Shown here: piece after piece, positions 2,541 through 22,688 of the stretch
How positions within the stretch are numbered: the stretch's first letter is position 1
How the letters are laid out: each line of letters starts with the position of its first letter
Source of the DNA: a virus
Length of the DNA stretch: 26,920 nt
Direction: 5' to 3' (one strand)
IMG/VR virus record: IMGVR_UViG_3300031707_000144
Span: 1-26,920 of that record
Position numbers and translations under genes: made by a program
The notes under the pieces: model-generated
The model's database searches: none
Told to the model about the DNA's origin: nothing
What the model saw: the letters and a program-made list of their open reading frames with translations, nothing else

Positions 2541-4133
2541 TTAAGTCCAGTTAGTCGCTAATGCACAACGTTTCCATGTATTAGTAGCGGTACAGATGTA
2601 TAGATAATGATCATTTTCATATATCTGACCAGCTACACCCGTACTCGTTGGAGTAGTGGGAGCGGTATCAGTTCTCCACATCATAGGCATTAATTGAGTA
2701 TCTGCATCCACCGCTACAATTCCACCAGCAATACGTCCTACGACTGATCCTGCCGCTACGGTCAGGGCAGCTGGAGTATTATCAGTGTCCGCATAAAGAA
2801 CTGTGTATGCATCATACAAGGCTTTTGTAACATAATCCGTTGCCGTTGCCGATGCCATCGTTCCCAATGTAATTCCCAGTACCTGAGTAGCGGAAAGAAC
2901 TTCTGCATTATTAATCTTATAAACAAGCCCAGAACTAAGATTTACACTCTGATTGAATGACCAATTATCATTGGCATTGTCCCAGAGGATGGTTTTATCA
3001 GTAGCTCCTTTCAAGGTAATACCACCACCATCGGCTGTAGTATCAGATGGAACAGCAACACTCCCTATTTCTATATTCTTATCATCTACGGTTAAGGTAG
3101 TGGCATTGATAGTTGTTGTGGTACCATTAACTGTAAGATCACCCGTAACAACCAAATCCTTATTTACCGTGACCGTACCGCCTGAAGCACTACCAAGATT
3201 AACATTCATCGCTGCCGTACCCGCACCAGCCGTAGCAATATTAACATTTGTAGTTGATCCTGTTGCTCCAGCTGTACCAATATTAATGGTTTTTGTTAAG
3301 CCAGTTGTAATTGCCCCAGTAATAAAGTTTGTTGTACTTGCTCCCGTACCATCATATCCAATAGCCAATGTAGTAGCTGCTCCAAAGGCATTAATGGTAG
3401 TTGAAGTGGTATCAAATACATCAAATGAAGCTCCACCAATTACAGAAGTTGTAAATGTTGGAGTTGTTCCTAATACCAAGGTTGTGCCTGATCCAGTTGT
3501 GGATGCTGCTGCAATAACCCCACTTCCATTTGTACCTAATGCTACTGCTGATATGATTGGTATATCCAATACACCAACAAGTGTTATAGTAGCATTCGTA
3601 TGCCCAATATTTATGGGAGTTGCCCCAGTTCCTGCCGCAGCAATATTCAAGGTTCCAGTAGTAAGTCCTGCTCCAATAGCTATTGAACCAGTGGTTACTT
3701 CACTCCAAAGATCAGCAGTTGATCCAGTTCCTGCCGCTTTGAGATCATCCAGAGTAAGAGCATTAAATGTGGCATCTTTTGCCTGTATATCAGCATACGT
3801 AGCACCACCACTAACCTTAACATCAAACTTGGAAGCTGATGCCGCTGTAAGTTCAATTGCAAACGTATCACTATCCAAATGAAATATCGTTTCGGTAGTG
3901 CCAGTGTCTGTATTCTGAGTATGCCCACCAGCAATAACCTGCCAAGCAAGACCAGTTGCAGCGGCATCACTCCTTACGAGCATATACCCATCTGTTCCTG
4001 CCGATAGAACAGTAGGGGTGTGATCTGTAGCAGCCGATAACAAATCACCTTTGTTTAAATGCACAATCTTCTCTGACCATTCTGTCAAAGTAGCATGTAC
4101 ATTTTGGATTAATAAAACATCATACTGTGCCAT
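2541..4133 (-). CDS. Tail fibre protein, repeat-rich shaft
   Basis: 530 residues. Residues 1-70 (MAQYDVLLIQNVHATLTEWS...DAAATGLAW) are shared with the downstream S74 fibre and probably form the attachment module. A long Gly/Thr/Ala-rich region follows, with imperfect repeats such as TLNIAAAGTGATPINIG and TINIGTAGATGSTTNVNI. Next comes VTGDLTVNGTTTTINATTLT, then VDDKNIEIG and GGGITLKG. I recognise this combination from fibres of aquatic phages. The C-terminus ends YLYICTATNTWKRCAL, a short terminal motif also found in modified form in the fibre-like gene at 4423-5331. There is no S74 domain. The long antisense frame opposite this gene is a by-product of its repetitive composition. Role: structural fibre or side fibre; the receptor is unknown. 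Confidence 0.8.
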   Translation of the reverse strand: MAQYDVLLIQNVHATLTEWSEKIVHLNKGDLLSAATDHTPTVLSAGTDGYMLVRSDAAATGLAWQVIAGGHTQNTDTGTTETIFHLDSDTFAIELTAASASKFDVKVSGGATYADIQAKDATFNALTLDDLKAAGTGSTADLWSEVTTGSIAIGAGLTTGTLNIAAAGTGATPINIGHTNATITLVGVLDIPIISAVALGTNGSGVIAAASTTGSGTTLVLGTTPTFTTSVIGGASFDVFDTTSTTINAFGAATTLAIGYDGTGASTTNFITGAITTGLTKTINIGTAGATGSTTNVNIATAGAGTAAMNVNLGSASGGTVTVNKDLVVTGDLTVNGTTTTINATTLTVDDKNIEIGSVAVPSDTTADGGGITLKGATDKTILWDNANDNWSFNQSVNLSSGLVYKINNAEVLSATQVLGITLGTMASATATDYVTKALYDAYTVLYADTDNTPAALTVAAGSVVGRIAGGIVAVDADTQLMPMMWRTDTAPTTPTSTGVAGQIYENDHYLYICTATNTWKRCALATNWT

Positions 4134-4149
4134 AATTTTTAGTTTTTAA

Positions 4150-4410
4150 TTATTTAGGGTATAGATTAAACGGTATTGATATGTTTTCCTTTGTTTGTAA
4201 TGCCAATTCCACAATCTTAACAATGTCAGATGGAGTAAGTATAACTCCACACATCAACTCATGTTCCTCACAGAGAGTTTCAATTTGCTTCTTCACATCC
4301 TCCACCATTTCTTTTTCTTCCTGCTCTACCTGTTTGAGTTCTTCTTCAATCTTTTTAGCCACTGCTATGGAATCTTCCAATTTCTTACGAATGTTTTTAC
4401 TTTTTGCCAT
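4150..4410 (-). CDS. Small coiled-coil protein between fibre genes
   Basis: 86 residues, start ATG at 4410. The first half is very rich in Lys and Glu with a heptad-like pattern (KKLEDSIAVAKKIEEELKQV), predicting a long helix or coiled coil. The second half is more hydrophobic and compact (LTPSDIVKIVELALQTKENI). It has two Cys near the centre (LCEEHELMC). I do not recognise the family. It lies between two fibre-like genes with 12 to 16 base gaps, so it is co-expressed with them. It could be a fibre assembly chaperone or a minor tail component; the sequence does not decide. The opposite-strand frame here is a shadow. Confidence 0.65.
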   Translation of the reverse strand: MAKSKNIRKKLEDSIAVAKKIEEELKQVEQEEKEMVEDVKKQIETLCEEHELMCGVILTPSDIVKIVELALQTKENISIPFNLYPK

Positions 4411-4422
4411 GATTTTAAATTT

Positions 4423-5331
4423 TTAAGGAGACTGCATTAATGCTGTTTTTTTCCATGTTGCTGCTCCAGCCCCACCCGTAGCAACACAGATATATATATA
4501 ATCATCGTCAATTGATCGTTGTCCAACTGTTCCAGCATCTGAGGATGAATACTTTGACCCCCAAGTAATATAAAGAAAACTGGAGGCATTGTAACTACTA
4601 TTTGCCAATTCACCCCCTGCTGTAAGAGTTGGGAAATTACCTTCCGTAGGAGTACCCACTATTGAAATATAATCAGAGTCATGGTAGTGAGTAGCTGGAG
4701 TTTGAGCATCAGCCAATACTCCACTTAATCCAGCCACTGATATTTCATCCGATCCTCCATTTTCATGGGTATCATTATGTGCATCGGGAATACCTGCCGT
4801 AGGAATATCATACCAACCACGCACCCCGGAACTATTCGTTCCATATAGTTTACTATTTCCCGGAGCAGATACATCACCAACCAAATTAACATTATTAGAT
4901 GAATCATCATCAATAGAATATCGGAATGTGTAAGTTTCTCCTGCCCCATAATTTAGATGAGCAAAACCTGATACAGAACCACTCCCATTAATACTTCCTT
5001 TTAAGAAATCACAATATGTCCGTCCAGTACCTGTAACTGTGGTTTTCCCATTAATCAAACCTCTGGCTAATTTTGTAGCTGTATCAACTAATACACCTGT
5101 AACTGTGGCTTCTCCACTACATAAATATGACGCTAATTTACCATCCCAAATAATGTTTGTCCAGTGAACCCTAGAACTATGATATGAAGATAATTGATTT
5201 TTAGTATAATAATTAGATAAGTCCGTAGGTGGAGTGGAAAGAACCTTTCCACCTGCAGTATGCTGGACAACTCCAATTCCAGTTACATCCCACGGAACAT
5301 ATTCTAAATATTTATAAATGTATATTGCCAT
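4423..5331 (-). CDS. Fibre-like tail-tip protein with short glycine repeats
   Basis: 302 residues. Residues ~60-115 hold three spaced copies of a short motif: GEATVTG, NGKTTVTG and NGSGSVSG. Such motifs are common in phage fibre and baseplate-associated proteins. Further on, DTHENGGSDEISVAGLSG and then ADAQTPATH form the widespread phage structural motif in which a G-G-S-D-E-I block precedes LSG and a D-x-QTP-x-H block. The C-terminal end has YIYICVATGG...WKKTAL, like the end of the fibre at 2541-4133. No enzymatic motif or signal peptide is seen. It follows the hub gene after 11 bases, so it may link the hub to the fibres. The link is inferred from gene order and motif sharing. Confidence 0.65.
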   Translation of the reverse strand: MAIYIYKYLEYVPWDVTGIGVVQHTAGGKVLSTPPTDLSNYYTKNQLSSYHSSRVHWTNIIWDGKLASYLCSGEATVTGVLVDTATKLARGLINGKTTVTGTGRTYCDFLKGSINGSGSVSGFAHLNYGAGETYTFRYSIDDDSSNNVNLVGDVSAPGNSKLYGTNSSGVRGWYDIPTAGIPDAHNDTHENGGSDEISVAGLSGVLADAQTPATHYHDSDYISIVGTPTEGNFPTLTAGGELANSSYNASSFLYITWGSKYSSSDAGTVGQRSIDDDYIYICVATGGAGAATWKKTALMQSP

Positions 5332-11400: not shown

Positions 11401-13190
11401 GTAGTTCCTTCTGCCGCCTTCTTAGCCCTATTGAATACATACGTTAATTTGGTGATTTCTTCAGCGACAAGACTATTCACATTACCTACAACATCCTTGA
11501 ATTCCTTTTGTGCTCTTACATGTCTTACAATCGCCACAGTGGCAGCCACTATTGCTGTTGCCAGAAGTAGCCATGGATTTGTTATAAGAAACCTCCCTAC
11601 AGAAGCCATTCCCCCAGCTAGTTTTTTAAATTTATCAGCCACAAATCCAATAGCCATACCAAATGTACTAAAAATAAGTGCCATTGGACCAATTAGTACA
11701 AGCCATTTACCCAGTTGTACAATCATCCTCTGTGTTCCTTTGTTTAGATTAGTGAACCACTCAATTACATTTTGTAACTTCTGACTCCATTTTTCCAATA
11801 TGGGAAGTATTAGTTGAGCAATGACAACACCTAACTTAATCAAATTAACTTTCATGCCAACTAATGCAGTATTCCATCTGAAAGCAATAGTCTGGGAAGC
11901 AATAAAGAAAGCCTTCTCAAAATCTCCCATAGACTGTGTAACCGCTTCCATTACCTGTTTATTGTACATCAAATTCTGACCAGTAAGGTTTAATGCCCCC
12001 AATAATGCCCTAATATTTGGGAATATTTCTGCCATGGACTCCCCATATTCATCTGTTAATTCTCGTAATCGTAACAATGTAGGCATTAGTCCTTGCCTCC
12101 TTAACATATCATTTAACTCCTTAGTGGAAGTACCCATCCTTGCAAAGGCTTTCTCCGTACCAGCAGATGGATGCATTAATTTCATAAGTACATTTCTCAG
12201 GTAGGTAGCAGCATTGGCAGTCTGTGATGTAATTAATGTCATTGACGCTAATGCACCACCTACTTGATCAAGTGAAACCCCCAATTCAGCAGCGATAGGT
12301 AATATTGTACCAAGTGCTCTTGCCATTTCAGCTGGTTCTCCTTTTCCTTCTCTAACTGATGCTGTTAATACATCCATTGCTCGGGCTGCCGTTAAACCAG
12401 ATGAACGATAGGCATTCATTGCTGAGGTTAAGAAGTTAGCAACATCCCCAGTCTCCCCTAATCCTGTGGCTGCTCCCTTTGCAGCCATTTCAGTAATTTC
12501 AAGAGCTTGGGCAGATTTAAAACCAGAAGATGCCACATAATATAAGGTATCTGCCAATTCCTGTGGACCTTTAGAAGTAGCCTTTGCCATATTTAAAAGA
12601 GACTTTCCCCATGCCTCCGTCTGTGATTTTGCAATACCAACCAATCCCTCTATTTTTGCCATAGCCATTTCAAAATCTCTACCAAACTTAGATATAGCAG
12701 TAGCCCCCATAATTAATGGGGCTGTAAATACTGTAGTAGCTAACCACCCAAAACTTCTCAACCTCATACTCATTCTACCAAGATTATCCCCCCAAGTATT
12801 AGCAAGTTTATTTGGATCAGGCATGTTCTTACCCGCACTTATCGCTCCTCCTCCCATCACTCCTACTCCCGTCACTCTTCCTACTCCTTGAAGTGATAAT
12901 AATTCCTTCTTCAACATTCGTGTTTGATTGGTTACTCTACCCAACTGTCGAACCATCTTATTTGTAGCTGCAAGCATCTTCTTCTCCCACACACTCATAG
13001 CAGTACTTGTTGCCATCAGATTGACATTTTTATCAAGTCTTTTTACTGCTGCATTAACAGTACCTAACTGCCGAACCATTTTATTTGAACTGGCAAGAAT
13101 TTTCTTTTCAAGCATACCAAAATCAATTATGCCTCTTCTTAATCCAGCAGTCTCTACTGTTAAAGTTGCTACTAATGTGCCTAAGTTCAT
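8445..13190 (-). CDS. Tail tape measure protein
   Basis: 1581 residues. Residues ~165-345 match the TP901/PhageMin-type core: GRDFEMAMAKIEGLVGIAKS, then ELADTLYYVASSGF, MAAKGAATGL, ALGTILPIAAELGVSLDQVG and NVLMKLMHPSAG. Long helical regions and hydrophobic segments follow near residues ~490-515, ~535-558 and ~1490-1510. The C-terminus carries MDKGGIIPPGYPNDTYPALL followed by TSGEAVIPLDQM, a common tape-measure end motif. In this family length sets tail length; at about 0.15 nm per residue this predicts a tail near 0.24 micrometre. Two internal duplications are listed separately. Its ATG overlaps the T-frame stop as ATGA, coupling it to the tail chaperones. Confidence 0.95.
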   Translation of the reverse strand: MNLGTLVATLTVETAGLRRGIIDFGMLEKKILASSNKMVRQLGTVNAAVKRLDKNVNLMATSTAMSVWEKKMLAATNKMVRQLGRVTNQTRMLKKELLSLQGVGRVTGVGVMGGGAISAGKNMPDPNKLANTWGDNLGRMSMRLRSFGWLATTVFTAPLIMGATAISKFGRDFEMAMAKIEGLVGIAKSQTEAWGKSLLNMAKATSKGPQELADTLYYVASSGFKSAQALEITEMAAKGAATGLGETGDVANFLTSAMNAYRSSGLTAARAMDVLTASVREGKGEPAEMARALGTILPIAAELGVSLDQVGGALASMTLITSQTANAATYLRNVLMKLMHPSAGTEKAFARMGTSTKELNDMLRRQGLMPTLLRLRELTDEYGESMAEIFPNIRALLGALNLTGQNLMYNKQVMEAVTQSMGDFEKAFFIASQTIAFRWNTALVGMKVNLIKLGVVIAQLILPILEKWSQKLQNVIEWFTNLNKGTQRMIVQLGKWLVLIGPMALIFSTFGMAIGFVADKFKKLAGGMASVGRFLITNPWLLLATAIVAATVAIVRHVRAQKEFKDVVGNVNSLVAEEITKLTYVFNRAKKAAEGTTDRANAIRVINERYGVYLKNLLTEKSSLEDIEEVQRQVTNAMVAAATVRGSEQELSSVYGKISNKFRTEMGAITDAFTERYGGDMLGEFVQDMYDTADKVLKTEGGKIKTDLYLVSQDTWRAVHDLWEEYVLEMSRSTGMLRYDWEEFGKAFLKFAAYKGMASGPINMLNAMISANQEAVDSQKELEESMSSIYAKIDTPAIRQVLMDMAAMDRIYNATKEDMDEQGKEYDVITDKTNLYNAALVKLKALGLEEAGEWIKHVEGLLHSLSTETGDTGSRVDELTKIMGEFNNKMQTLKDINADSAMKDQFEEYGKVFDFVGEKADLLSSTITELMENGFFKDEVTQKLIKEFKDLPKNMGPAIIILAKLGSKLEALKNQREHMEQFGKYGETFDFVGEKAKLLESAITELMENGFFEEEFVQGLIEEFKNLPPSILSVIQVLDKLREALEVAQVKAKFEGPKFDVIGAEISAYESAIDGIIEAMSKMENLKTATFTIEVEGVQQTISLVAYLNLTLREFYNKLDMLKMAQQTAIDQEMINLLQAEADAFGGVIGKVNVLTYALEAQEKQLRSMLKANATKKAFTPEEIQNTINNINTLKYAIEDLNAAIDIKYLQDMNNLFGNLSTSMALLDGYMAVMEDQLKAMSANGMEATDEFRNLASQLQKYKNTIMVVEEFTGAMDGMIRTLIEGGDETQSLGEKMSEYLSDTLKDIIAKLISATLRFVIFTNVIKGFKLEQGSFGKSLADAFDIGKSGLKLMDFSGVLKTGGIEDFTDVVNNLKDSLGELSKIFDEVSKGQVLNTGVVEKGTEALSFAEVVYNALTKAKKGEAVATAAVTVADQVSIGVKAKGMAVAGTQVIVEKALTIQKEKSAFATFLLAGAEALLKGVRSLGLAGIIAGALFAVAAIAMVTMAVRKAKKMDKGGIIPPGYPNDTYPALLTSGEAVIPLDQMEKQTWSLEGAEVRFEIEGDRLVGILKKQMKKKSIY
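10020..10475 (-). repeat. Tandem 228-bp (76-residue) repeat inside the tape measure gene
   Basis: Two adjacent units begin FEEYGKVFDFVGEKADLL (from 10475) and FGKYGETFDFVGEKAKLL (from 10247). Each continues with ITELMENGFF and an EEF/KEF-K-LP block. The period is 228 bases, so the frame is kept. Similarity fades towards the end of the second unit, and a weak third start (KFDVIGAEISAYESAIDGII) follows. The two copies also match as DNA, for example over the segments from 10161 and from 10389. This looks like an in-frame tandem duplication that lengthened the ruler. Confidence 0.85.
12939..13109 (-). repeat. Short N-terminal duplication in the tape measure protein
   Basis: Residues 28-43 (EKKILASSNKMVRQLG) and 69-84 (EKKMLAATNKMVRQLG) are near-identical helices 41 residues apart. 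They lie ahead of the tape-measure core, in the part that would contact the tail tip or the chaperone. The repeat is helical and amphipathic. Confidence 0.8.
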
Positions 13191-13576
13191 TTTTTCTTAA
13201 TATTAGGTGGTTTCTTAGGAATGTATTCCTTTTTATTTTGTGCCGTTGCTATATCTTTAAGTACTCGTTTCATATCATCAACTGATTGAGATGTTGTCCC
13301 TTCTGGAACAGTATGATCCCACTCAGGCATGAAATCCAGTGCTGTGTGTTTTGTTGCTCTTTTACCATGTGCCCAAGTCATTAAGTTTGTAAACTGGGCT
13401 TGCAATGAAGCCCAACCAACATCGTCTCTCCATTTCCCTATTGGATCAATTACATCGTATGCTTCCCACTCTTGTATCTGTTCCAATGTCAGATGATCCA
13501 ATAGGTAATCAGGATGGATAATACCTAACTCTCTACAGAGCCTGAAGCAGAATTGTCGCCAAGGGCGACTTCGGAG
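13187..13576 (-). CDS. Tail assembly chaperone T part (gpT-like), read by -1 frameshift as the GT fusion
   Basis: 129 residues as read after the slip at 13576. The frame is open from a stop near 13595 down to 13187 and has no ATG upstream of its conserved part; a TTG at 13501 lies inside that part and has no ribosome site. It reads LRSRPWRQFCFRLCRELGII followed by HPDYLLDHLTLEQIQEWEAY and IDPIGKWRDD, the pattern of T-type tail chaperone parts (short helices, then a WxAY-x-x-x-(D/E)PxG motif). It lies in the -1 frame of the G gene, with which it overlaps, so the product is a fusion of 126 G residues and 129 T residues, 255 in all. In lambda, G and GT bind the tape measure and recruit tail-tube subunits. 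The stop overlaps the tape-measure ATG (ATGA). Confidence 0.85.
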   Translation of the reverse strand, partial: LRSRPWRQFCFRLCRELGIIHPDYLLDHLTLEQIQEWEAYDVIDPIGKWRDDVGWASLQAQFTNLMTWAHGKRATKHTALDFMPEWDHTVPEGTTSQSVDDMKRVLKDIATAQNKKEYIPKKPPNIKKK

Positions 13577-13953
13577 TTTTTTATGAGTTCCTCCTTATCT
13601 TCTTCAGTTATTGCATTGAGTTTCTGAGATTCATTTACAATCTTCTCCAGTCTCGCTGCACTCATCATTTGGCTCAGTTGAGGGTAATCATTTGGTTGCA
13701 GGAGTAAATTACCCTGCTCATCACATACAGAACATACCGCTAATTTAGCTCTGAAATCATCCAGTGCCTGTTCATACCCAGTAACCTTGCCTTTACTATC
13801 ACGAGTGCGTTTGATAAGAGATTGTTCAAATTTATCTCTTTCACGTCCAGTCATCTGACGAACATAAACATATTCATCTTTGCCAAGATCGACTTTCACG
13901 ATCTTGAGTTCTTCCTTTGCTAAAAGGTTCTCTCTGTTTAAAAGTTTTTCCAT
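13525..13953 (-). CDS. Tail assembly chaperone G (gpG-like)
   Basis: 142 residues, between the tail-tube gene and the tape measure, the usual site of tail chaperones. The protein is mostly helical and highly charged (TGRERDKFEQSLIKRTRDSK), with ALDDFRAKLAVCSVCDEQGN and a low-complexity acidic and Ser-rich C-terminus. The zero-frame product ends at a TAG at 13525. A fraction of ribosomes should slip at 13576-13582 and continue into the T frame. In lambda and many siphoviruses the ratio of G to GT matters for tail assembly, and neither protein stays in the mature virion. No Shine-Dalgarno site is obvious; the leader is A-rich. A putative terminator hairpin lies just upstream, which may lower expression relative to the tail tube. 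Confidence 0.85.
   Translation of the reverse strand: MEKLLNRENLLAKEELKIVKVDLGKDEYVYVRQMTGRERDKFEQSLIKRTRDSKGKVTGYEQALDDFRAKLAVCSVCDEQGNLLLQPNDYPQLSQMMSAARLEKIVNESQKLNAITEEDKEELIKNSEVALGDNSASGSVES
13555..13596 (-). promoter_or_regulatory. Tripartite -1 programmed ribosomal frameshift signal
   Basis: Read on the minus strand, three elements follow in order. First, AAGGAGG at 13596-13590, a perfect Shine-Dalgarno-like site with no start codon after it. Second, after 7 bases, A AAA AAC at 13582-13576, phased in the G frame as ATA AAA AAC. Third, after a 6-base spacer, the hairpin GTCGCC-CTT-GGCGAC at 13569-13555, a perfect 6-bp stem with a 3-base loop. A GAA just before the stem and a TTC two bases after it could add three more pairs. 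Slippage by -1 leads directly into the open T frame. Upstream Shine-Dalgarno-like site, heptamer and downstream hairpin are the same three parts as in the E. coli dnaX signal; its spacer is 10 bases as I recall. Confidence 0.92.
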
Positions 13954-15415: not shown

Positions 15416-15808
15416 TTATCTTAAAAATGGTGTTAAAAATGCTTTATGTAAAAACTCAGTCGTTGACCCCAATGCAGGTGTCTTCTCAAACCGTTTGATG
15501 ATGTAAGCTGTCTCTTTTAACTTTGGATTAGTCAACTCTTCCGCAGTAAGATCAACCAATGTACCCAAATATAAATAACCCTGCTCATCTAAATCCTGAG
15601 TAACAAAGACCACTGACCGAGACAATTCTATTCCACCAGTAACTTCACCCCCTACTTGAGTTCCCATGATCTGCTCTTTATCCTCCCAACGACAAGGTAT
15701 TTCTATGGGAGCAGCAAAAGTTTTACCACCATAACCATCTTCTACTGGGGAACCCCAATAGACACAGGTCTGTACACATTTACTTGCTATAAATGCTGCT
15801 ATTCCCAT
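15416..15808 (-). CDS. Head closure / head-tail adaptor-like protein
   Basis: 130 residues, strand-rich. Visible blocks are CVYWGSPVEDGYGGKTFAAP, IPCRWEDKEQ, SRSVVFVTQDLDEQGYLYLG and TAYIIKRFEKTPAL. A small beta-barrel with an early 'Y.....DGYGG..F..P..I.CRW' block is typical of head-tail adaptor proteins (SPP1 gp16 / HK97 gp7-like). These close the connector after DNA packaging. Its ATG overlaps the stop of the connector gene by one base (TAATG), so the two are translationally coupled. Assignment rests on motif pattern plus position; exact family not certain. Confidence 0.7.
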   Translation of the reverse strand: MGIAAFIASKCVQTCVYWGSPVEDGYGGKTFAAPIEIPCRWEDKEQIMGTQVGGEVTGGIELSRSVVFVTQDLDEQGYLYLGTLVDLTAEELTNPKLKETAYIIKRFEKTPALGSTTEFLHKAFLTPFLR

Positions 15809-16212
15809 TATTCAAAGCTTTTAACTGCATAAATACTTGCTGCCCTCTTACCTGCGTTTGCTAACAAACCAGTTGTATCCAATACCTTCAGCATCATTCC
15901 ATACGGGGATGAATCAAGCCCTTTGCCAAAGGTAGTAGTTGCATATTCTATTTCTGCATCTCCCACTTTCTCCCGTTTTACTGCTCCACTGCCCCCAATA
16001 CTACCTCCCGAGCCATAAACAGAAAATATAATGTGAGCAGACAACCACTTTTCAAGTTCTGCTTTCTGATCGGTTGTAGTAGTAGTATCATATTCAAATA
16101 CTCGATCCATAAGAATGTGAGCTGCATTAATGAATGGATGTATTTGAGCATCTGTCAAAGTACAACCTTTCATTATTTCCAAAACTTCTTCTGCCGTTGT
16201 TAAACATGCCAT
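15808..16212 (-). CDS. Head-tail connector (gp6/DUF4054-like)
   Basis: 134 residues with a strong ribosome site (AGGAGG) upstream of the ATG at 16212. The first 60 residues are helical (TTAEEVLEIMKGCTLTDAQI, then INAAHILMDRVFEY), followed by a helix with LEKWLSAHIIFSVYG. A flexible Gly/Ser loop comes next, then VKREKVGDAEIEYATTTFGK, SPYGMMLKVLD and the C-terminus. Helix bundle, 'LSAH' helix, a 'x-E-K-V-G-D-x-x-x-x-Y' strand and 'SPYG' are typical of head-tail connector subunits that dock on the portal. The start lies 13 bases inside the end of the sulfotransferase gene. The strong ribosome site suggests expression partly independent of the cassette upstream. Confidence 0.75.
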   Translation of the reverse strand: MACLTTAEEVLEIMKGCTLTDAQIHPFINAAHILMDRVFEYDTTTTTDQKAELEKWLSAHIIFSVYGSGGSIGGSGAVKREKVGDAEIEYATTTFGKGLDSSPYGMMLKVLDTTGLLANAGKRAASIYAVKSFE

Positions 16213-16865
16213 TTTGTTTTCCTCCTACTTTTTAATAACATTGGATCAATTGTTTCTACTATTTTACTATTCCATTCCAATCCTAACCATTCCAGAGTTT
16301 CATATATCTGTTGGTAATCCCCACTTACCATTCGCTCCGGCCATACTATCTTGCAATTAACTCCTGCTTCAATCATTGTAACAAATCGTTTCTCGTACTG
16401 ATGTACCCACCATTTCCATCCTTCTGTTTCATCCACTGCCCCCACACGTTTTAAATTATTGGCATCCTTAAACATTGTCATATACCCCGTCTTTATACAG
16501 GATTCCACTATATCACCCGTTCTCCTTCTGACTATAATCCAACGTGCATTTGGAAAGGCATAATTCCAAACTGGCCACATTTGTCCCAGTTTAGGACTTT
16601 TACACATCCACGACCCATCCTTGTATTCTTCCCTCTCCAATATCTCCAACACCTTAGCATTCCAATCCATAGGAATACTCAAACCTCTTATGTCAGGGAA
16701 TAAACCAACTTTGGAACTAAGAAATCCATCCATCAGTAAATTCATTCCAAAATTTTCGTACATTGTAGATGTCAGTCCTTTATGCACTCCACAAATATCA
16801 AATATCTTTGCTATCATGGAACTACCTGATCGCTCTACTCCTGTTATGAATATTGGTTGGTTCAT
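16200..16865 (-). CDS. Sulfotransferase family protein
   Basis: 221 residues. The N-terminus FITGVERSGSSMIAKIF (6-22) has the 5'-phosphosulfate loop of PAPS-dependent sulfotransferases (G-x-x-R-S-G-S-S). RWIIVRRRTGDIVESC at ~108-123 fits the 3'-phosphate motif, with Arg 113 and Ser 122 as candidate ligands. The rest (CKSPKLGQMWPVWNYAFPNA, GWKWWVHQYEKRF, YETLEWLGLEW) agrees with bacterial sulfotransferases. Known members move sulfate from PAPS to a hydroxyl or amine of sugars, lipids or peptides. No signal peptide or membrane segment is visible, so it should act in the cytosol. It is last in the glycan cassette: ATGA overlap with the glycosyltransferase before it, 13-base overlap with the connector after it. 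A nucleotide kinase is a less likely reading. Substrate unknown. Confidence 0.82.
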   Translation of the reverse strand: MNQPIFITGVERSGSSMIAKIFDICGVHKGLTSTMYENFGMNLLMDGFLSSKVGLFPDIRGLSIPMDWNAKVLEILEREEYKDGSWMCKSPKLGQMWPVWNYAFPNARWIIVRRRTGDIVESCIKTGYMTMFKDANNLKRVGAVDETEGWKWWVHQYEKRFVTMIEAGVNCKIVWPERMVSGDYQQIYETLEWLGLEWNSKIVETIDPMLLKSRRKTKWHV

Positions 16866-17566
16866 TCGTAATATTTATAATCTTCCCCAATCAATTCTTT
16901 TAATTTCTCAAAATTTACATCACTAGTCATTTTAACATCCATCCTGTGCCCCATCCCTATTCCTGCCCTACCTGGAAGTCCTTTAATCCCTATGGCTAAA
17001 TCCTGACCATCAAACAGATTAACTTTTTTATGGTGCACTGCCCTAAAGAAACTCATATCAATGAACTTATTTCTTTGTATACAAATAGTTTTGAAAATAT
17101 TAAGCATATTGGGTTTAAAAGCTACCTGGAAAAGACTTGCATGTCCAATGTTTCCATTCCTCATCCATCCCTTATTCACTACATCATAATAAACGGTATA
17201 CATTTGTCCTGCCACGTCATATCCCTTTAGTTTCTTCACCATTGTACTTAGGTACTGAGAGGAATAATAATCATCATCCTCAATTATAAAAACATAATCA
17301 ACTTCAAAAAATTCAACAATTTCAATACCTCGTATTAAATTACTTGCCTGTGTGTTTAATCCGGGCATCCACTTCTTCTGTGGATAAATTTTCAATATCT
17401 TCCAATTTTCACGAAAGTCGGATGTAATATTTTTAGTAGTAACCGGCAAGGCATCATCCACAATTACCCACAATACTTTCCCTTCATAATCCTGCTTATG
17501 CATAAATTCTGCACAGAGTTTAATCTGTGTTGGACGTGCTCCAGTTGGTGTAATCAAAGCAATCAT
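16862..17566 (-). CDS. GT-A glycosyltransferase-like protein
   Basis: 234 residues. The fold pattern of family 2-type glycosyltransferases is visible: MIALITPTGARPTQIKLCAE at the start, VLWVIVDDA at ~31-39 (nucleotide-sugar site), and YVFIIEDDDYYSS at ~91-103, whose EDDD supplies the metal-binding D-x-D. DGQDLAIGIKGLPGRAGIGM at ~187-205 is in the place of the catalytic acidic residue. There are no transmembrane helices. It overlaps its neighbours on both sides by ATGA, the epimerase upstream and the sulfotransferase downstream, so these three are probably made together. The donor and acceptor cannot be read from sequence. It probably adds one sugar of a glycan that is then sulfated. Confidence 0.75.
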   Translation of the reverse strand: MIALITPTGARPTQIKLCAEFMHKQDYEGKVLWVIVDDALPVTTKNITSDFRENWKILKIYPQKKWMPGLNTQASNLIRGIEIVEFFEVDYVFIIEDDDYYSSQYLSTMVKKLKGYDVAGQMYTVYYDVVNKGWMRNGNIGHASLFQVAFKPNMLNIFKTICIQRNKFIDMSFFRAVHHKKVNLFDGQDLAIGIKGLPGRAGIGMGHRMDVKMTSDVNFEKLKELIGEDYKYYE

Positions 17567-18456
17567 AATCTTTTCTTAACCTTTTTAATTACCCTATCAA
17601 TTCCTTCTTCCAATGATATAGAACAATTATATTTAGTCAATATACTTTGTAAAGTAAAATTTGCTGCTTTCGTTAAGGTCATTTTTTCTGGTAATGCTGT
17701 TTCAATTACATAATCTTTATAAGATAATTCAAGCTTCTTACAAATCATCCTTGCCATATCCTGTGTAGAATATAATTCAGGATTCCCCACATTGATAATC
17801 ACAAACTCTTTCAGATAACATAACTTTTCAAGAACCACTATGGCATCATCAAGGTGCATCCATGAACGGTAACTATCTTTATGAACTGTTATTTGCTGAT
17901 GCCTTAATAATGAATAAACAAAGCGAATCATAGCTGAACGGTGATCTCCAAAAGATTCATCTTCATGATAAAACATAAATGGACGAACAATAACAGCATT
18001 TAATCCATTGGATATTTCATATTCTACCAACTGCTCCGCCATTAATTTACTTAACCCATAAATATTGTTAGGTCGTAGGTCACGTCGCCCCTCCGACAAA
18101 TTACCCACCAAATTTCCATATACTTCAGAAGTGGAAAAGAAAATAAGTTTTGCCCCCACCTGCTTACATAATTGAATTACATTTTCCGTACCACAGACAT
18201 TTGTCTTAATCGTAGTAACGGGGGAATGTTCACAAGTAACCCTACTTACCATAGCTGCCATATGAAAAACAATCTCTGGTTTAAATTCATAGAAAGCACT
18301 CACAATATCAGCTCCATTATTGATATCAACAGTTCTGTATCCTTCCTCAAACTTCTGTTTGATATCAATGCAGAATACCTTATGTCCTTTACTCCTGAGA
18401 TAAGGAATCAGTATCTCTCCTATATTTCCTGCTCCACCTGTTACTAATATTTTCAT
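17563..18456 (-). CDS. NAD(P)-dependent SDR sugar epimerase/dehydratase
   Basis: 297 residues from the ATG at 18456, which overlaps the stop of the previous gene as ATGA. A TTG at 18480 would add eight residues and is rejected. The Rossmann start MKILVTGGAGNIGEIL has G-x-x-G-x-x-G at 7-13. STSEVYG at 108-114 and YGLSK at 133-137 form the Ser/Tyr-x-x-x-Lys catalytic set, and VIVRPF at ~155-160 is typical of extended SDRs. The conserved blocks match nucleotide-sugar 4-epimerases and 4,6-dehydratases (GalE/RmlB/WbpP class). It should convert one NDP-sugar to another to feed the neighbouring glycosyltransferases. The exact substrate cannot be set. No nucleotidylyltransferase is encoded here, so the starting NDP-sugar must come from the host or from genes outside the window. 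Confidence 0.85.
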   Translation of the reverse strand: MKILVTGGAGNIGEILIPYLRSKGHKVFCIDIKQKFEEGYRTVDINNGADIVSAFYEFKPEIVFHMAAMVSRVTCEHSPVTTIKTNVCGTENVIQLCKQVGAKLIFFSTSEVYGNLVGNLSEGRRDLRPNNIYGLSKLMAEQLVEYEISNGLNAVIVRPFMFYHEDESFGDHRSAMIRFVYSLLRHQQITVHKDSYRSWMHLDDAIVVLEKLCYLKEFVIINVGNPELYSTQDMARMICKKLELSYKDYVIETALPEKMTLTKAANFTLQSILTKYNCSISLEEGIDRVIKKVKKRL

Positions 18457-18665
18457 GCTGCATTTATTAATCTTGTCCAAAGTTGTAATGTCTTAATATT
18501 CTGTTCAAAAGTGTAAAATAAATTACCACCATTGAGATACATTGCTTCATCTAAATCACGAGCCTTGACATCTACCTCAGCTTCTTTCAAAGTAGCTTGT
18601 AGATAGCCAAGTGATGGTGAAGGGAATACATCACTCTGCCACGGATTTATAAGCAATACCTTCAT
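18453..18665 (-). CDS. Short protein resembling the start of a cobalamin-binding (B12) radical-SAM domain
   Basis: 70 residues. The first ~45 (MKVLLINPWQSDVFPSPSLG, YLQATLKEAEVDVKARDLDE) are the classic opening of B12-binding domains in radical SAM enzymes: beta-strand, NP loop, P-S-LG-YL helix and second strand. The B12-ligand motif (D-x-H-x-x-G) and the whole radical SAM barrel are absent. Its end overlaps the epimerase start as ATGA and its ATG overlaps the preceding gene in the same way. The frame is thus tightly integrated, not an obvious random fragment. It could be a decayed remnant kept for translational coupling, or a small protein reusing half of a Rossmann-like fold. I cannot assign a function. 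Confidence 0.6.
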   Translation of the reverse strand: MKVLLINPWQSDVFPSPSLGYLQATLKEAEVDVKARDLDEAMYLNGGNLFYTFEQNIKTLQLWTRLINAA

Positions 18666-19426
18666 AAGTCTCTTGTATATATATGTTTTGCCCTATATGA
18701 ATTTTCTTTTCTTATTTCAAGTAATAAAAGTTTATTCTTTGCCTCCAATCTGACATAATCTACTGGATGTGGAGTAACATAATGCCACTGATGAACTACA
18801 AATGGAACGAGAGGAATTTTAACCTGTAACCCAAGTACCCCCACTCTTTCAATAAGATTATTGTCTCCATAGGCATGTCCATCACTAAACCGCTCATCAT
18901 ACCCATTCAACAACTTCATGTTTTTAGCTGTTAAGGCAACACAAAAGTCAAAAGCATTAGGTCTATACACTGGATGATTATACCAAGCAAGATCACCATC
19001 AAAATTGGCTCTACGGCGATTTTTATCCGCCAGGTAAAAAACATTATGTTCTTTAAACGTATTTTCCCGATCTAAACTAAAACAACTAAAGGCAAAATAT
19101 GTAGAATCAGTTACCTTTGTAGCATAAGAAATAACATCCCCTACATGATAACACTCGGCATTTTGCACAATAATAACATCAGGGTTTGCTTTCATTGCCA
19201 GAAATAATCCCATATTGTAGGCTGGTTCTGGATTAGTCCACCTTTTATTCTTCATCTTCACTACAGTTACTGGGTATTCCTTTATATTATGAAAAATATC
19301 ATTTCGACTGTCATCATCCACTACAATCACTTCAAAATCTTTATACTCAGATTTCTTCAAAGATTCCAAAGTCTTAGTCAGTTGGAGCTGCCGTTCATAA
19401 TATGTCATTACAAGAATCAATTTCAT
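18662..19426 (-). CDS. Family 2-type glycosyltransferase
   Basis: 254 residues. The N-terminus MKLILVMTYYERQLQLTKTL and VIVVDDDS at ~33-40 are the nucleotide-sugar site of GT2 enzymes. At the position of the usual D-x-D, the protein has VQNAE (87-91), so the metal motif is altered. FDFCVALTAKNMKLLNGYDE (159-178) followed by RFSDGHAYGDNNLIERV is the acceptor-side block with the probable catalytic acidic residue. HQWHY at 212-216 sits near the C-terminus. No membrane segments are seen. ATGA overlaps tie it to both neighbours. The altered D-x-D also occurs in active polypeptide- and chondroitin-type GT2 relatives, so loss of activity is not implied. Sugar and acceptor unknown. Confidence 0.82.
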   Translation of the reverse strand: MKLILVMTYYERQLQLTKTLESLKKSEYKDFEVIVVDDDSRNDIFHNIKEYPVTVVKMKNKRWTNPEPAYNMGLFLAMKANPDVIIVQNAECYHVGDVISYATKVTDSTYFAFSCFSLDRENTFKEHNVFYLADKNRRRANFDGDLAWYNHPVYRPNAFDFCVALTAKNMKLLNGYDERFSDGHAYGDNNLIERVGVLGLQVKIPLVPFVVHQWHYVTPHPVDYVRLEAKNKLLLLEIRKENSYRAKHIYTRDL

Positions 19427-20079
19427 TTCACTAACCTTTTTTTGCCTGTTGCACTATTTACATTTGCCGTCTGATAATAATATTGTTCATCCTTTGAAAG
19501 TAAGGTAAGATCAGAATAATACCAAGGTACATGCCTTGCCGTGTAAGGTCTATTCGTTCTTACTGCTGAGTGGGAATAATTTACTACTCCTTCTCGATAT
19601 AAAGCAAATGTGGTATCTACTGGAGAATTATAATACATATTATCATACTGACTCCTCCAATATCTTGGTTCAACCTGAGTCCTGATATAATTACCTTCCT
19701 CAGTATTAGGTAAATCATTTATCTCAAGACTAAATCCACATTTGTCAATATGCCGGTATTTATCCAATCCAGTATTCAGTACAGTAAGGAAATCATCTGG
19801 TATTCCACTCAAATCCAAATCTGGATCAGATACTATATATCTTTCATTAACTATTCCTAAACGTTGTAGTATATTTACCTCTTTATTCCATATAACAGTA
19901 TGCCCATGATTTTCTTTTAAACGAAGTGTAGTATAAGGACATTCATAATAGTACTCCAACAATGGAGCATAGTCCGAATGATTATCTATGAAAATAGGGG
20001 TCAGTCCATGTGTATCACACCAAACTGCCATTTTCATTGGAAGAGTCAAACGGTTATAATTTATTATTAGTACTTTCAT
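19423..20079 (-). CDS. GT-A glycosyltransferase-like protein
   Basis: 218 residues, with AAAGGAG 9 bases upstream of the ATG. The start MKVLIINYNRLTLPMKMAVW and PIFIDNHSDYAPLLEYY match GT-A folds of the family 2 type. YIVSDPDLDLSGIPDDFL (81-98) carries the D-x-D as DPDLD. CGFSLEINDLP, PVDTTFALYR (153-162) and RHVPWY (182-187) are typical of a small glycosyltransferase family found in phages and bacterial surface-polysaccharide loci. Its first 26 bases overlap the end of the MptE-like gene and its stop overlaps the next glycosyltransferase (ATGA). No membrane segment. It is one of three glycosyltransferases in this cassette, enough to build a short oligosaccharide, assuming each adds a sugar. 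Confidence 0.78.
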   Translation of the reverse strand: MKVLIINYNRLTLPMKMAVWCDTHGLTPIFIDNHSDYAPLLEYYYECPYTTLRLKENHGHTVIWNKEVNILQRLGIVNERYIVSDPDLDLSGIPDDFLTVLNTGLDKYRHIDKCGFSLEINDLPNTEEGNYIRTQVEPRYWRSQYDNMYYNSPVDTTFALYREGVVNYSHSAVRTNRPYTARHVPWYYSDLTLLSKDEQYYYQTANVNSATGKKRLVK

Positions 20080-20803
20080 TATTTAAAAACTCCTTTAAGG
20101 TCATTTTTGGAAATTCCACAATTGCACTATCAGGGCTGATATTAATAATTTCAATCCCTCTCATCCTGGCATCCTTTGCAATATATGGAAATCCTAACAG
20201 ATGCTTATGAAAAGGAAGAGATTTTCTTGGATCTCTTGGTTGCCCTCTTCTTCCAGCAGGTACTACTGATGTAGGTTCTTCTGCATAAAGTTTATGCCAA
20301 TTTTTTTCTCCATTCCCATTTAATGTCATATCAAATCCTAACAGTATAATTCTCTTTGCCCCTGCATTGGCGGCAACACTAATTGCAGCCCCTCCACTAT
20401 GAGCATTCCAAGAAATCATGTTTGGATTAGGGGTTATTCCTTTTGGATGATTTCCATCCCTACCTAAGAACTTAACCCAGTCATACCCTTTAATCCCATC
20501 ATGGCAAGTAACTTTCAAACCTGGCCATGCCGCTAATCTATCCTTATGTGGAAGGAAAAATTTATTATCCCCAAAGAAAACCATATCTATCCAAGTTCCA
20601 ATCAGATATGCGGCATTAATACCAATGACATGCTTCTTATGGATAACTTCCATGTAAGGGGAGTATATTGAGGGAGGTGAAACCCCATTCATTACTTCTT
20701 GCACAAGAGTGTCTGGAATATCAAATTGCTTTGTTACCGATGGCCCTCCTCCAAGAATCCAAACATCTCCTCCCTCCCATATACGTGGAACTTCCCAATT
20801 CAT
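20054..20803 (-). CDS. DUF115/MptE-like Rossmann protein ('norphogenetic' type)
   Basis: 249 residues from the ATG at 20803, which shares one base with the preceding stop (TGATG). A GTG three bases earlier is an alternative. Motifs: WILGGGPSV (15-23), VIGINAAYLIG then DMVFFGD, SGGAAISVAANAGAKRIILL followed by GFDM (to 159), and IINISPDSAIVEF near the end. This set defines a phage family often annotated 'norphogenetic protein' and related to the DUF115/MptE-like domain. That superfamily also includes flagellin glycosylation factors and GT42-type sialyltransferases. It opens the glycan cassette, so a role in glycosyl transfer or in recognising the protein to be modified fits, but it is not proven. 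A nucleotide-binding maturation role is another possibility. Confidence 0.75.
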   Translation of the reverse strand: MNWEVPRIWEGGDVWILGGGPSVTKQFDIPDTLVQEVMNGVSPPSIYSPYMEVIHKKHVIGINAAYLIGTWIDMVFFGDNKFFLPHKDRLAAWPGLKVTCHDGIKGYDWVKFLGRDGNHPKGITPNPNMISWNAHSGGAAISVAANAGAKRIILLGFDMTLNGNGEKNWHKLYAEEPTSVVPAGRRGQPRDPRKSLPFHKHLLGFPYIAKDARMRGIEIINISPDSAIVEFPKMTLKEFLNNESTNNKL

Positions 20804-21201
20804 CACTTTAGTTTTTTAATCATTGTCTTTGCCTGTTCCTTAGTCAATGGTTGTTCATTGATAACTTTCCCCTCAGAAGATATTACATCATAATAGAAAC
20901 CATGTGAAATAATCTTCCCTTCCGCATCCATTTCCATATGTTTATCTTCCCGCTCATTCATGCGGTATATGACGGGTTTATCCATTGATAAATCCACTTC
21001 TGGAGGAGGAATAGATTGGGATTCTTCCTTCTCTGGCATATTTAGGGTAACATCCAAAGGAATGACTGTTAGTCTGAATTCTATTGGAATGGCACTTTCA
21101 GGAGCAGAAAATATCTGCCCTGGTTTCATGATTTTCTTACCCCAATACCAAGCTCTGCTGGAAACAACTTTCCAACGGATCGTGACATCTTTAGGTTCCA
21201 T
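20803..21201 (-). CDS. Small structural or accessory protein, paralogue B of a tandem pair
   Basis: 132 residues with a GGAGGG site before the ATG at 21201. N-terminal block IRWKVVSSRAWYWGKKIMKP then GQIFSA, and C-terminal block YYDVISSEGKVINEQPLTKE then QAKTMIKKL, both parallel the adjacent 108-residue gene. Between them sits a longer, acidic and Pro-rich linker (PEKEESQSIPPPEVDLS) absent from the neighbour. No enzyme motif. It lies between capsid and glycan genes and is coupled to the MptE-like gene by TGATG. Two small folded ends joined by a flexible linker would suit a capsid-associated or adaptor protein; this is inference. Confidence 0.7.
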   Translation of the reverse strand: MEPKDVTIRWKVVSSRAWYWGKKIMKPGQIFSAPESAIPIEFRLTVIPLDVTLNMPEKEESQSIPPPEVDLSMDKPVIYRMNEREDKHMEMDAEGKIISHGFYYDVISSEGKVINEQPLTKEQAKTMIKKLK

Positions 21202-21203
21202 AA

Positions 21204-21530
21204 TTAACCCTCCAACTTTTTAACCAGTTCCAAAGCCTCAGATTTTTTCAAAGCCTTCTCATTGATAACCTTTCCCCGATTATCAACAGCATCATACCAA
21301 TTACTTTTTCCTCTCCTCTGAACAGAGAATTCAATCTTAACTGCTACGGGTTCTGGTCCAGTTGGTATGGGTTCCAAAGGTTTTATTGTATCCCTGAAAG
21401 CCATTGATACTTGATCTGAAGTGGCTAAGAATATATCACCAGGTTTAATTACTCTGTGATCACTTAGGTAAAGAATACCACCACCGGTATGTTTCCACTT
21501 TATTACATCATTTTTTATTGTACGTTCCAT
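21204..21530 (-). CDS. Small structural or accessory protein, paralogue A of a tandem pair
   Basis: 108 residues. N-terminal block IKWKHTGGGILYLSDHRVIK then PGDIFLA, with MAFRDTIKPLEPI after it; C-terminal block NWYDAVDNRGKVINEKALKK then SEALELVKKLEG. It follows the capsid gene after a 45-base gap that holds a hairpin. The same two blocks occur in the next gene, so the pair arose by tandem duplication. I associate proteins with a 'kPGdiF.A' and a 'GKVINEk.Lrk.eA..l' block with the post-capsid position of environmental phages, but know no function for them. A role as minor capsid or head-completion protein is likely from context only. Confidence 0.7.
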   Translation of the reverse strand: MERTIKNDVIKWKHTGGGILYLSDHRVIKPGDIFLATSDQVSMAFRDTIKPLEPIPTGPEPVAVKIEFSVQRRGKSNWYDAVDNRGKVINEKALKKSEALELVKKLEG

Positions 21531-21575: not shown

Positions 21576-22688
21576 TTAGGCAATATGGGTTACACCACAC
21601 TGTCCCAATACGTCGGAACGAATCTGAGGAACCTGTATGGTCAGGACTTTGTATTTGGTAATAAATTTACCTTCAGTCTGCCATTCAACGTTCTGTAGAC
21701 CCATACCACGTATCAGCCTTACAACATCCGATGTCATCTGAATGAACAGGACATTGTTAGCCGGGAGGGTGTCAATAACCTTTATGCCAAGTATTCCAGA
21801 TATTGCGAGAATCCTTGCACGGATAGTCGTATTGGGAGCTGTATCAGGAGTTGAGCCAACATAATCCTCATCCAAAACGGTTTCATAAGTCGTTGGGATG
21901 TAGATCATCCACGGCCCATAATGTTTGGCATTAATACTGACTTGCTTCCAGGAGATAACTTGGTCAACAATAGTCTTTCCAGTTACTGCTGAATCGTCCC
22001 ATGCAGTCCCCAGTGAAACCTGGTTTCTGTCAGGAAAATTAATGTAACTGTAAATGGTATTGCGACTTCTGCTATCCTTTTCACCAAAACTATAAGTAGT
22101 ATTGGTAAACAGCATGTTCTCCAGTTTTACCATCACTGCTCTTGCAGCACGTTCAGCCAACGTGGTATCCAGTGGATTACCCATGTTACGGCTGGTAGCC
22201 AATGCCCTTGCATTGATTTCATAATCAACATGCACGATAGGTATTGGCAAGTAATTGTACTGCCAGACAGGACGGTTCCCAAGAGCACGGGTTACAGCAT
22301 CCATTGTGAGATCAGCTTCCAGGTCACCCTGAACATCATGCCATTCAAGTACTGTCGTACCCATAGCATTTCCAAGGTTGTATGTCAAACCTCTTCCAAC
22401 GAGATCATCCACACCACCAAGTCTGATTTCAGCAGCCTTCTGTACGGCTTCATCAAGTAACTTCCACTCATTCGGGCGGAGAGTTGCTCCAGCATTAGTC
22501 TGTATAGACTTGTAACTTGCTGGATCTTTAGGATCACCAGTACCTTTGTATACTGATACATAACTTCTGCCATCAGTATGTACAAAAGGTCTCATATAAC
22601 CAGGATCAAGTCTCCCTTGATTGGCGAAATAGTTTGCTACTTCTCCACGCACCTGGCCATCGCTTCCAATTAAATCAACATTTATCAT
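21576..22688 (-). CDS. Major capsid protein (HK97-fold)
   Basis: 370 residues, with an ideal ribosome site (AAAGGAGG) before the ATG at 22688. It lies after protease/scaffold and a decoration-like gene, the standard site for the capsid gene. Visible blocks are RLGGVDDLVGRGLTYNLGNA, TTVLEWHDVQGDLEADLTMD, VHVDYEINARALATSRNMGN, a helix with AERAARAVMVKLENMLF, and QTEGKFITKYKVLTIQVPQI near the end. The order (N-terminal arm, long helix with A-R-x-V-x-x-x-E, P-domain strands) suits an HK97-type shell protein, and the texture reminds me of encapsulin-like (Linocin M18) relatives, a weak call. The gene is GC-richer than most (33 of 60 bases at 22261-22320, 26 of 60 at 21781-21840). Confidence 0.85.
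   Translation of the reverse strand: MINVDLIGSDGQVRGEVANYFANQGRLDPGYMRPFVHTDGRSYVSVYKGTGDPKDPASYKSIQTNAGATLRPNEWKLLDEAVQKAAEIRLGGVDDLVGRGLTYNLGNAMGTTVLEWHDVQGDLEADLTMDAVTRALGNRPVWQYNYLPIPIVHVDYEINARALATSRNMGNPLDTTLAERAARAVMVKLENMLFTNTTYSFGEKDSRSRNTIYSYINFPDRNQVSLGTAWDDSAVTGKTIVDQVISWKQVSINAKHYGPWMIYIPTTYETVLDEDYVGSTPDTAPNTTIRARILAISGILGIKVIDTLPANNVLFIQMTSDVVRLIRGMGLQNVEWQTEGKFITKYKVLTIQVPQIRSDVLGQCGVTHIA

Follow-up and report, generated by a model that had tools for sequence, protein, structure and literature searches.

Glycosylation of proteins in the cytosol is familiar from the Maf flagellin glycosyltransferases, which act on the protein before its export and transfer nonulosonic acid to flagellin Ser/Thr. 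Phage-coded sugar enzymes are known from the gtr modules of temperate phages, which serve O-antigen conversion, and from mycobacteriophages: a passage of PMC12619734, citing Freeman et al. 2023, describes glycans on capsid and tail-tube proteins of their virions and phage-coded glycosyltransferases. Sulfotransferases encoded by phages figure in passages of PMC8290583 and PMC10829341, either among auxiliary metabolic genes or as modifiers of nucleotides. Here, we analyse a virus record of 26,920 bases (IMGVR_UViG_3300031707_000144; hereafter the window, whose numbering is used for positions), in which a cassette of sugar genes, with an MptE-like gene at one end and a sulfotransferase gene at the other, lies inside a head–tail operon. 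The cassette represents one form of a hypervariable island found across a lineage of uncultivated siphophages.

Virion glycosylation in phages is already known; an island with a Maf-fold anchor enzyme and a sulfotransferase would be a new form of it, and no publication on it was found by title or start of abstract among the open-access papers searched. The island resembles the mycobacteriophage systems in its phage-coded glycosyltransferases and in having its sugar genes placed with virion genes. It differs in being multigene and exchanged, in its Maf-fold anchor and in its sulfotransferase, and it is known here from its genes. With gtr modules it shares phage-coded sugar enzymes; unlike them, it is located in the head operon, and GtrA was found in none of 25 long records of the lineage (55 kb or more, without completeness estimate and including L033, which has no island; absence from these records does not prove absence from the phage). 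In the isolated Caulobacter phage CcrColossus (locus L208, 7935–12488), an MptE-like gene likewise stands directly behind virion genes, with a nucleotide-sugar transferase gene and a GT9 gene nearby. There, however, the virion genes in front are those of the tail and not the capsid, MptE identity is 33% over half of the protein, and none of the 19 annotated features viewed is named a sulfotransferase. CcrColossus is a possible laboratory model.

Results

The window carries a minus-strand siphophage operon that runs from portal, head morphogenesis protein, protease, decoration protein and major capsid protein to two small genes, the first of them called g108 here, then through the cassette to the DUF4054 connector, further neck genes, tail tube, chaperone, tape measure and tail genes. 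The cassette consists of seven minus-strand open reading frames (ORFs; 16200–20803) reaching from the small genes behind the capsid gene to the connector (Table 1). The original prediction, made from the letters of the window, had described seven coupled genes between capsid and connector with ATGA overlaps at nearly all junctions, and both points hold. Four-base ATGA overlaps join five of the six internal pairs (sulfotransferase/GT_C, GT_C/epimerase, epimerase/B12, B12/GT_B and GT_B/GT_A), the GT_A/MptE junction is a 26-base overlap, and MptE starts with the ATG at 20803 in a TGATG junction with its upstream neighbour. The overlapping junctions therefore point to translational coupling of the operon.

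We gathered a first set of loci (denoted by L and a number) with capsid, sulfotransferase and MptE queries, including the best 80 of 353 capsid and the best 80 of at least 501 MptE relatives, and labelled genes from ORFs and profiles made in this analysis rather than by a gene caller. Merging loci with long identical stretches reduced the 203 loci of this set to 142 groups: 80 reach from capsid to connector, another 53 are truncated and 9 lack a capsid gene. The seven genes, which had been taken for the unit, turned out to be one filling of a variable island between two fixed anchors, g108–MptE on one side and sulfotransferase–connector on the other. Among the 80 spanning groups, 62 have g108, MptE and sulfotransferase, 11 have g108 and MptE, two have g108 and sulfotransferase, two have g108 only and three have none of these. 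In 77 of the 80 loci, g108 immediately follows the capsid gene; an MptE-like gene is present in 73, directly behind g108 in 72 of them, and a sulfotransferase in 64. Because some loci had been selected by MptE or sulfotransferase, those chosen by capsid were counted separately: the same classes hold 40, 11, 2, 2 and 3 of 58 groups, so that g108 and MptE occur together in 51, g108 without MptE in four and neither in three. On the sulfotransferase side, a further scan gave the best 80 of 342 relatives; in all 68 distinct loci among them, the next recognised gene belongs to the connector block, being DUF4054 in 64 and g130, the gene after DUF4054 in the window, in four.

Island-free arrangements exist as well. 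In L033, L067 and L072, the connector lies directly behind the capsid gene, and a single small gene separates capsid from connector in the isolates MaInes (35% capsid identity with the window; DUF4054 match over the cut-off) and Hardycor1 (31%; match below the cut-off). In L066, which lacks MptE, a 506-residue protein (3373–4893) lies between g108 and sulfotransferase; by eye it combines a sugar transferase with an ATP-grasp-like part. Titles of metagenome-assembled genomes put capsid-relative contigs in Bacteroidota, Balneolales, Syntrophomonadaceae, Spirochaetota, Halanaerobiaceae, Marinimicrobia and Puniceicoccales; since phage contigs are often mis-binned, we claim no host.

Between these ends, genes are exchanged freely. 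MptE and connector are separated by 0 to 12 genes (median 6), and the 80 loci hold 59 different gene sets drawn from 83 protein clusters, which are automatic and include singletons (g108, MptE and sulfotransferase excluded). A survey of related phages for the cassette had been suggested; it found the ends kept and the middle different even at 94.8% capsid identity, where L008 has only g108 and MptE and L012 has five more genes. Cargo representatives over Pfam cut-offs include transferases (GT2, GT9, GT29, GT32-type (Gly_transf_sug) and capsule-synthesis enzymes), FkbM and other methyltransferases, DegT aminotransferase, alcohol dehydrogenase, dehydrogenase E1/transketolase-type enzymes, radical-SAM/B12 proteins and APS kinase. 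A GT10-like match stayed below its cut-off, as did all Pfam matches of two representatives (249 residues in L123, and L186), and five of 20 representatives had no Pfam match, including those from L123 (298 residues), L010, L200 (248 residues) and L149.

The label MptE-like holds only in part. Against the Pfam family of that name (PF01973), the sole model at E <= 1, the protein reaches 16.5 bits with 23 residues matched, below the cut-off of 34.6; it does match phrog_4603, annotated as alpha-2,3-sialyltransferase (E 3e-24). Its structure model is confidently globular (predicted local distance difference test, pLDDT, 92.6) and is predicted to have the glycosyltransferase fold of Maf and CstII. 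With the catalytic domain of Maf (5mu5) it aligns over 195 residues at Z 14.6 and a root-mean-square deviation of 4.4. The window protein, of 250 residues, corresponds to the central domain only (256–512 of the 632-residue Maf chain), without the surrounding domains, and there is no flagellin. The GT42 enzymes CstII and Cst-I share the fold at Z up to 11.8 and agree with the PHROG name; unlike them, MptE has no Pfam match to the GT42 sialyltransferase family and is about 18% identical over the structural alignment. We propose that MptE may be a priming glycosyltransferase. By tblastn, it matched 18 of 50,697 phage records. MptE is fused to GT_C in L013. It also forms the N-terminal part of proteins of 948 to 1108 residues in L056, L162, L176 and L202; the anchor and other domains can therefore be one polypeptide.

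g108 is small and, judging by its model, probably has two domains. Seven loci carry fusions of its N-terminal domain with glycosyltransferase-like or MptE-like proteins. The domain heads glycosyltransferase-like proteins of 314–315 residues (L010, L011, L035) and of 705–706 residues (L012, L204); of the two MptE-like fusion proteins, that of L113 begins with it and that of L108 has it internally. Since the L012 protein matches PF05159 (capsule synthesis) and the L010 protein no Pfam family, the term glycosyltransferase-like is firm for the long kind only. These fusions suit a docking module, and g108 is likely a platform on or near the capsid that brings enzymes to their substrate, a role that would explain why its N-terminal domain is joined to sugar enzymes. 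No tblastn match to g108 was found in the 50,697 phage records (one query; a single-sequence search, which misses distant relatives), and hhalign comparison with the small gene that follows the capsid gene in Citrobacter phage K1M, MaInes and Hardycor1 yielded probabilities of only 0.14, 0.23 and 3.9%, respectively.

At the other end of the island, the sulfotransferase matches PF13469 over residues 4–199, above the cut-off of 27 bits. R12-S13-G14, K89, R113 and S122, which we take to be residues of the 5′-phosphosulfate loop and the 3′-phosphate site, are invariant in 28 of 28 sulfotransferases, so that the enzyme, as read from the alignment, keeps the residues for binding 3′-phosphoadenosine 5′-phosphosulfate (PAPS). 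At E 0.001, 20 of the 25 long records have a Sulfotransfer_3 match, which is over the cut-off in 17; two tblastn queries, again single-sequence searches that miss distant relatives, found no sulfotransferase match in the 50,697 phage records. Seven loci of the first set carry a gene for adenosine 5′-phosphosulfate (APS) kinase, which adjoins the sulfotransferase gene in six but not in L200. The two genes are also neighbours in 14 of the 80 sulfotransferase-selected loci, some of which are the same or near-identical contigs as those of the first set. Pfam APS_kinase is over its cut-off in L175 and, in a search of 26 records, in those of L175, L188 and L200. The gene beside the APS kinase of L200 looks sulfotransferase-like by eye and was not counted, having no Pfam match. 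Two sulfotransferase-family genes occur per island in L027, L166, L178, L188, L192 and L196.

Of the three glycosyltransferases first proposed, GT_B and GT_C exceed the GT2 cut-off of 23.3 bits, and GT_A stays a candidate: Pfam, PHROG and NCBIfam searches placed it in no family and its best PDB match (E 0.45) was not convincing, but it is conserved across eight aligned sequences. GT_B also has a weak match to phrog_841, GtrB-like O-antigen conversion (E 4e-4). The short-chain dehydrogenase/reductase (SDR) epimerase and the sulfotransferase were identified correctly, both being over their Pfam cut-offs; the epimerase starts at 18456 and not at the TTG at 18480. The supposed B12-domain-like fragment has a different meaning. 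This ORF of 70 residues corresponds to about the first 42 and the last 43 residues of a radical-SAM/B12 protein of 366–370 residues (Radical_SAM plus B12-binding), whose gene is whole in L047, L085, L156 and L039 (370 residues), the last on the same contig as L005 and with a capsid protein 90% identical. Joining both ends of that protein, the ORF is an in-frame deletion remnant. L043 has no called gene between GT_B and the epimerase.

Flippases, noted as lacking in the window, were not found in long relatives either: none of the 25 long records matched Polysacc_synt flippase, the lipid-linked priming transferase Bac_transf or GtrA, while controls rang in 13, 9 and 7 of 14 genomes, respectively. 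The accompanying statement that no membrane segment is visible needs one qualification. In the near-identical locus L038, MptE alone, at 1.61, comes up to the hydropathy threshold of 1.6 over 19 residues, yet its model is globular; the other proteins scored, the 70-residue B12 ORF not being among them, lie below it. Of 579 island proteins overall, 50 were flagged by the scan; MptE accounts for 24 of these, and none has more than two segments (no positive control in either case).

Discussion

The original prediction of cytosolic modification of virion proteins gains from the head-operon place of the island across the lineage, the Maf fold, the PAPS-site residues and the APS kinase neighbour in some loci. 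We consider it probable that a virion protein is glycosylated and sulfated in the cytosol during assembly, guided by g108. Building directly on protein is favoured because of the Maf-type fold of the anchor, the place among head genes and the failure to find flippase, GtrA or priming transferase in the long records. We infer the acceptor, the sugars, the order of steps, the role of g108 and the selective reason as follows. MptE would put the first sugar on a virion protein, probably a head protein, the candidate acceptors being a capsid, decoration, connector or tail protein. The variable glycosyltransferases would then lengthen the glycan, epimerases, aminotransferases and methyltransferases would shape its sugars, and the sulfotransferase would transfer sulfate from PAPS, which the APS kinase of some phages may help to make. 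g108, on or near the capsid, would bring these enzymes to their substrate, and swapping of the middle genes would give the particle a different surface, in the way that O-antigen loci alter the surface of a cell.

Several observations weigh against this reading. It is predicted from gene content, and no modified virion protein is known. Concerning the anchor, archaeal HPPK matches the MptE model at Z 10.8, and since it shares the fold, MptE need not be a glycosyltransferase. Concerning g108, the model is weak (pLDDT 73.5, predicted template modelling score 0.35), fold searches of PDB and viral libraries returned nothing at E <= 0.001 (best second-look Z 5.6), and the seven fusions amount to about three kinds rather than seven independent events. 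The association of g108 with MptE in the capsid-chosen loci (Fisher p 0.001) rests on three g108-free loci and ignores shared ancestry. L071 has g108 and sulfotransferase without MptE, and L073 and L075 have g108 with neither. No convincing Ser/Thr column that tracks the island was found in capsid or decoration proteins, where island-free sequences number only 3 and 2. Nor does g108 show conserved Ser/Thr or Ser/Thr enrichment (Ser+Thr 8.6%, against 9.6% in MptE and 9.3% in the sulfotransferase); the single column with at least 50% Ser/Thr has Ile in the window. This speaks against g108 as the O-glycan acceptor, a role that we rejected on Ser/Thr content and conservation, demoting g108 to docking module. 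With these points counted, we still regard the assembly of a sulfated glycan on a virion protein as fairly probable.

The island could instead remodel a host surface glycan (lipopolysaccharide, capsule or S-layer) against superinfection or loss of progeny on debris, using the lipid carrier, flippase and ligase of the host. Surface polysaccharide loci usually contain GT2 enzymes, epimerase, aminotransferase and methyltransferases, the weak match of GT_B to a GtrB-like family points the same way, and host flippases could serve. We nevertheless find this unlikely, given that GtrA, flippase and priming enzyme were not found in the 25 long records by searches whose controls rang, that an integrase was found in just two of those records, and that the place in the head operon is fixed. 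More doubtful still is a sulfotransferase that modifies virion-protein tyrosine instead of sugar, alongside a glycosylation system. Its nearest PDB sequences are indeed protein-tyrosine sulfotransferases (TPST) 1 and 2 (residues 6–211), and L071 has nothing else than g108 and sulfotransferase between capsid gene and connector. However, these matches are weak (E 9e-4 to 2e-3), the column aligned with what we take to be the catalytic Glu of TPST is not Glu in the phage profile, in a part where the alignment is weak, and in capsid-chosen loci the sulfotransferase accompanies MptE (40/51 loci with MptE against 2/7 without, p 0.014).

Phage glycosyltransferase/sulfotransferase systems for nucleotide modification are reported in a passage of PMC10829341 citing Iyer et al. 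2013, and the island might correspondingly place sugars and sulfate on hypermodified DNA bases. We hold this to be very improbable in view of the head-operon position, the g108 fusions and the search for a base hydroxymethylase of the thymidylate-synthase family, which in the 25 long records gave a single weak match, below the cut-off, and none above it (9 of 14 control genomes rang). A TET/JBP oxidase search also gave 0/25, but no control genome rang either, so that this negative carries no information.

Returning to modification of the particle, we tentatively suggest that the lineage builds on its own virions an antigen-like, quickly exchanged sulfated glycan coat, with Maf-fold priming, g108 aiming the enzymes at the head and, in some phages, an APS kinase. 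To our knowledge, such a coat would be the first case of a sulfated phage particle. If true, phage particles would carry hypervariable charged glycans from their own genes as cells do with O-antigens, and the island would be the phage counterpart of O-antigen loci, with consequences for phage therapy, for the adhesion of particles and for the ways in which phages evade antibodies, grazers and anti-phage factors. It would also supply soluble enzymes with which proteins could be glycosylated and sulfated, and the acceptor question can be tested by reconstituting capsid protein, g108 and MptE.

Features of the Window

Table 1. Genes of the island and its flanks in the window, in operon order.
Feature	Position	Strand	Basis
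Major capsid protein (left flank of island)	21576..22688	-	phrog_771, E 1.5e-8; annotated major capsid proteins among tblastn matches
g108, small, probably two-domain gene behind capsid gene, proposed capsid-side docking module	21204..21530	-	Position; N-domain fusions
g108 paralogue (second copy)	20803..21201	-	32% identical to g108 in alignment
MptE-like, predicted Maf/GT42 fold, proposed priming glycosyltransferase	20054..20803	-	phrog_4603, E 3e-24; structure model
GT_A, conserved protein, candidate glycosyltransferase without family support	19423..20079	-	8-sequence alignment, invariant D-P-D-L
GT_B, GT2 glycosyltransferase	18662..19426	-	PF00535, 44.8 bits
Radical-SAM/B12 gene, deletion remnant	18453..18665	-	Matches both ends of 370-residue L039 protein
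NAD-dependent sugar epimerase/dehydratase family protein	17563..18456	-	PF01370, 125 bits; phrog_540
GT_C, GT2 glycosyltransferase	16862..17566	-	PF00535, 25.0 bits
PAPS-type sulfotransferase, end of island	16200..16865	-	PF13469, 37.4 bits; invariant putative PAPS-site residues
DUF4054 connector protein (right flank of island)	15808..16212	-	PF13262, 24.2 bits; phrog_302

Two observations concern the tail genes of the window. The tail assembly chaperone and minor tail T genes are adjacent (13187–13953), the second with a TTG start, and could be a frameshift pair of the lambda G/GT type. A tail protein at 847–2535 has a C-terminal Peptidase_S74 (endosialidase chaperone) domain.

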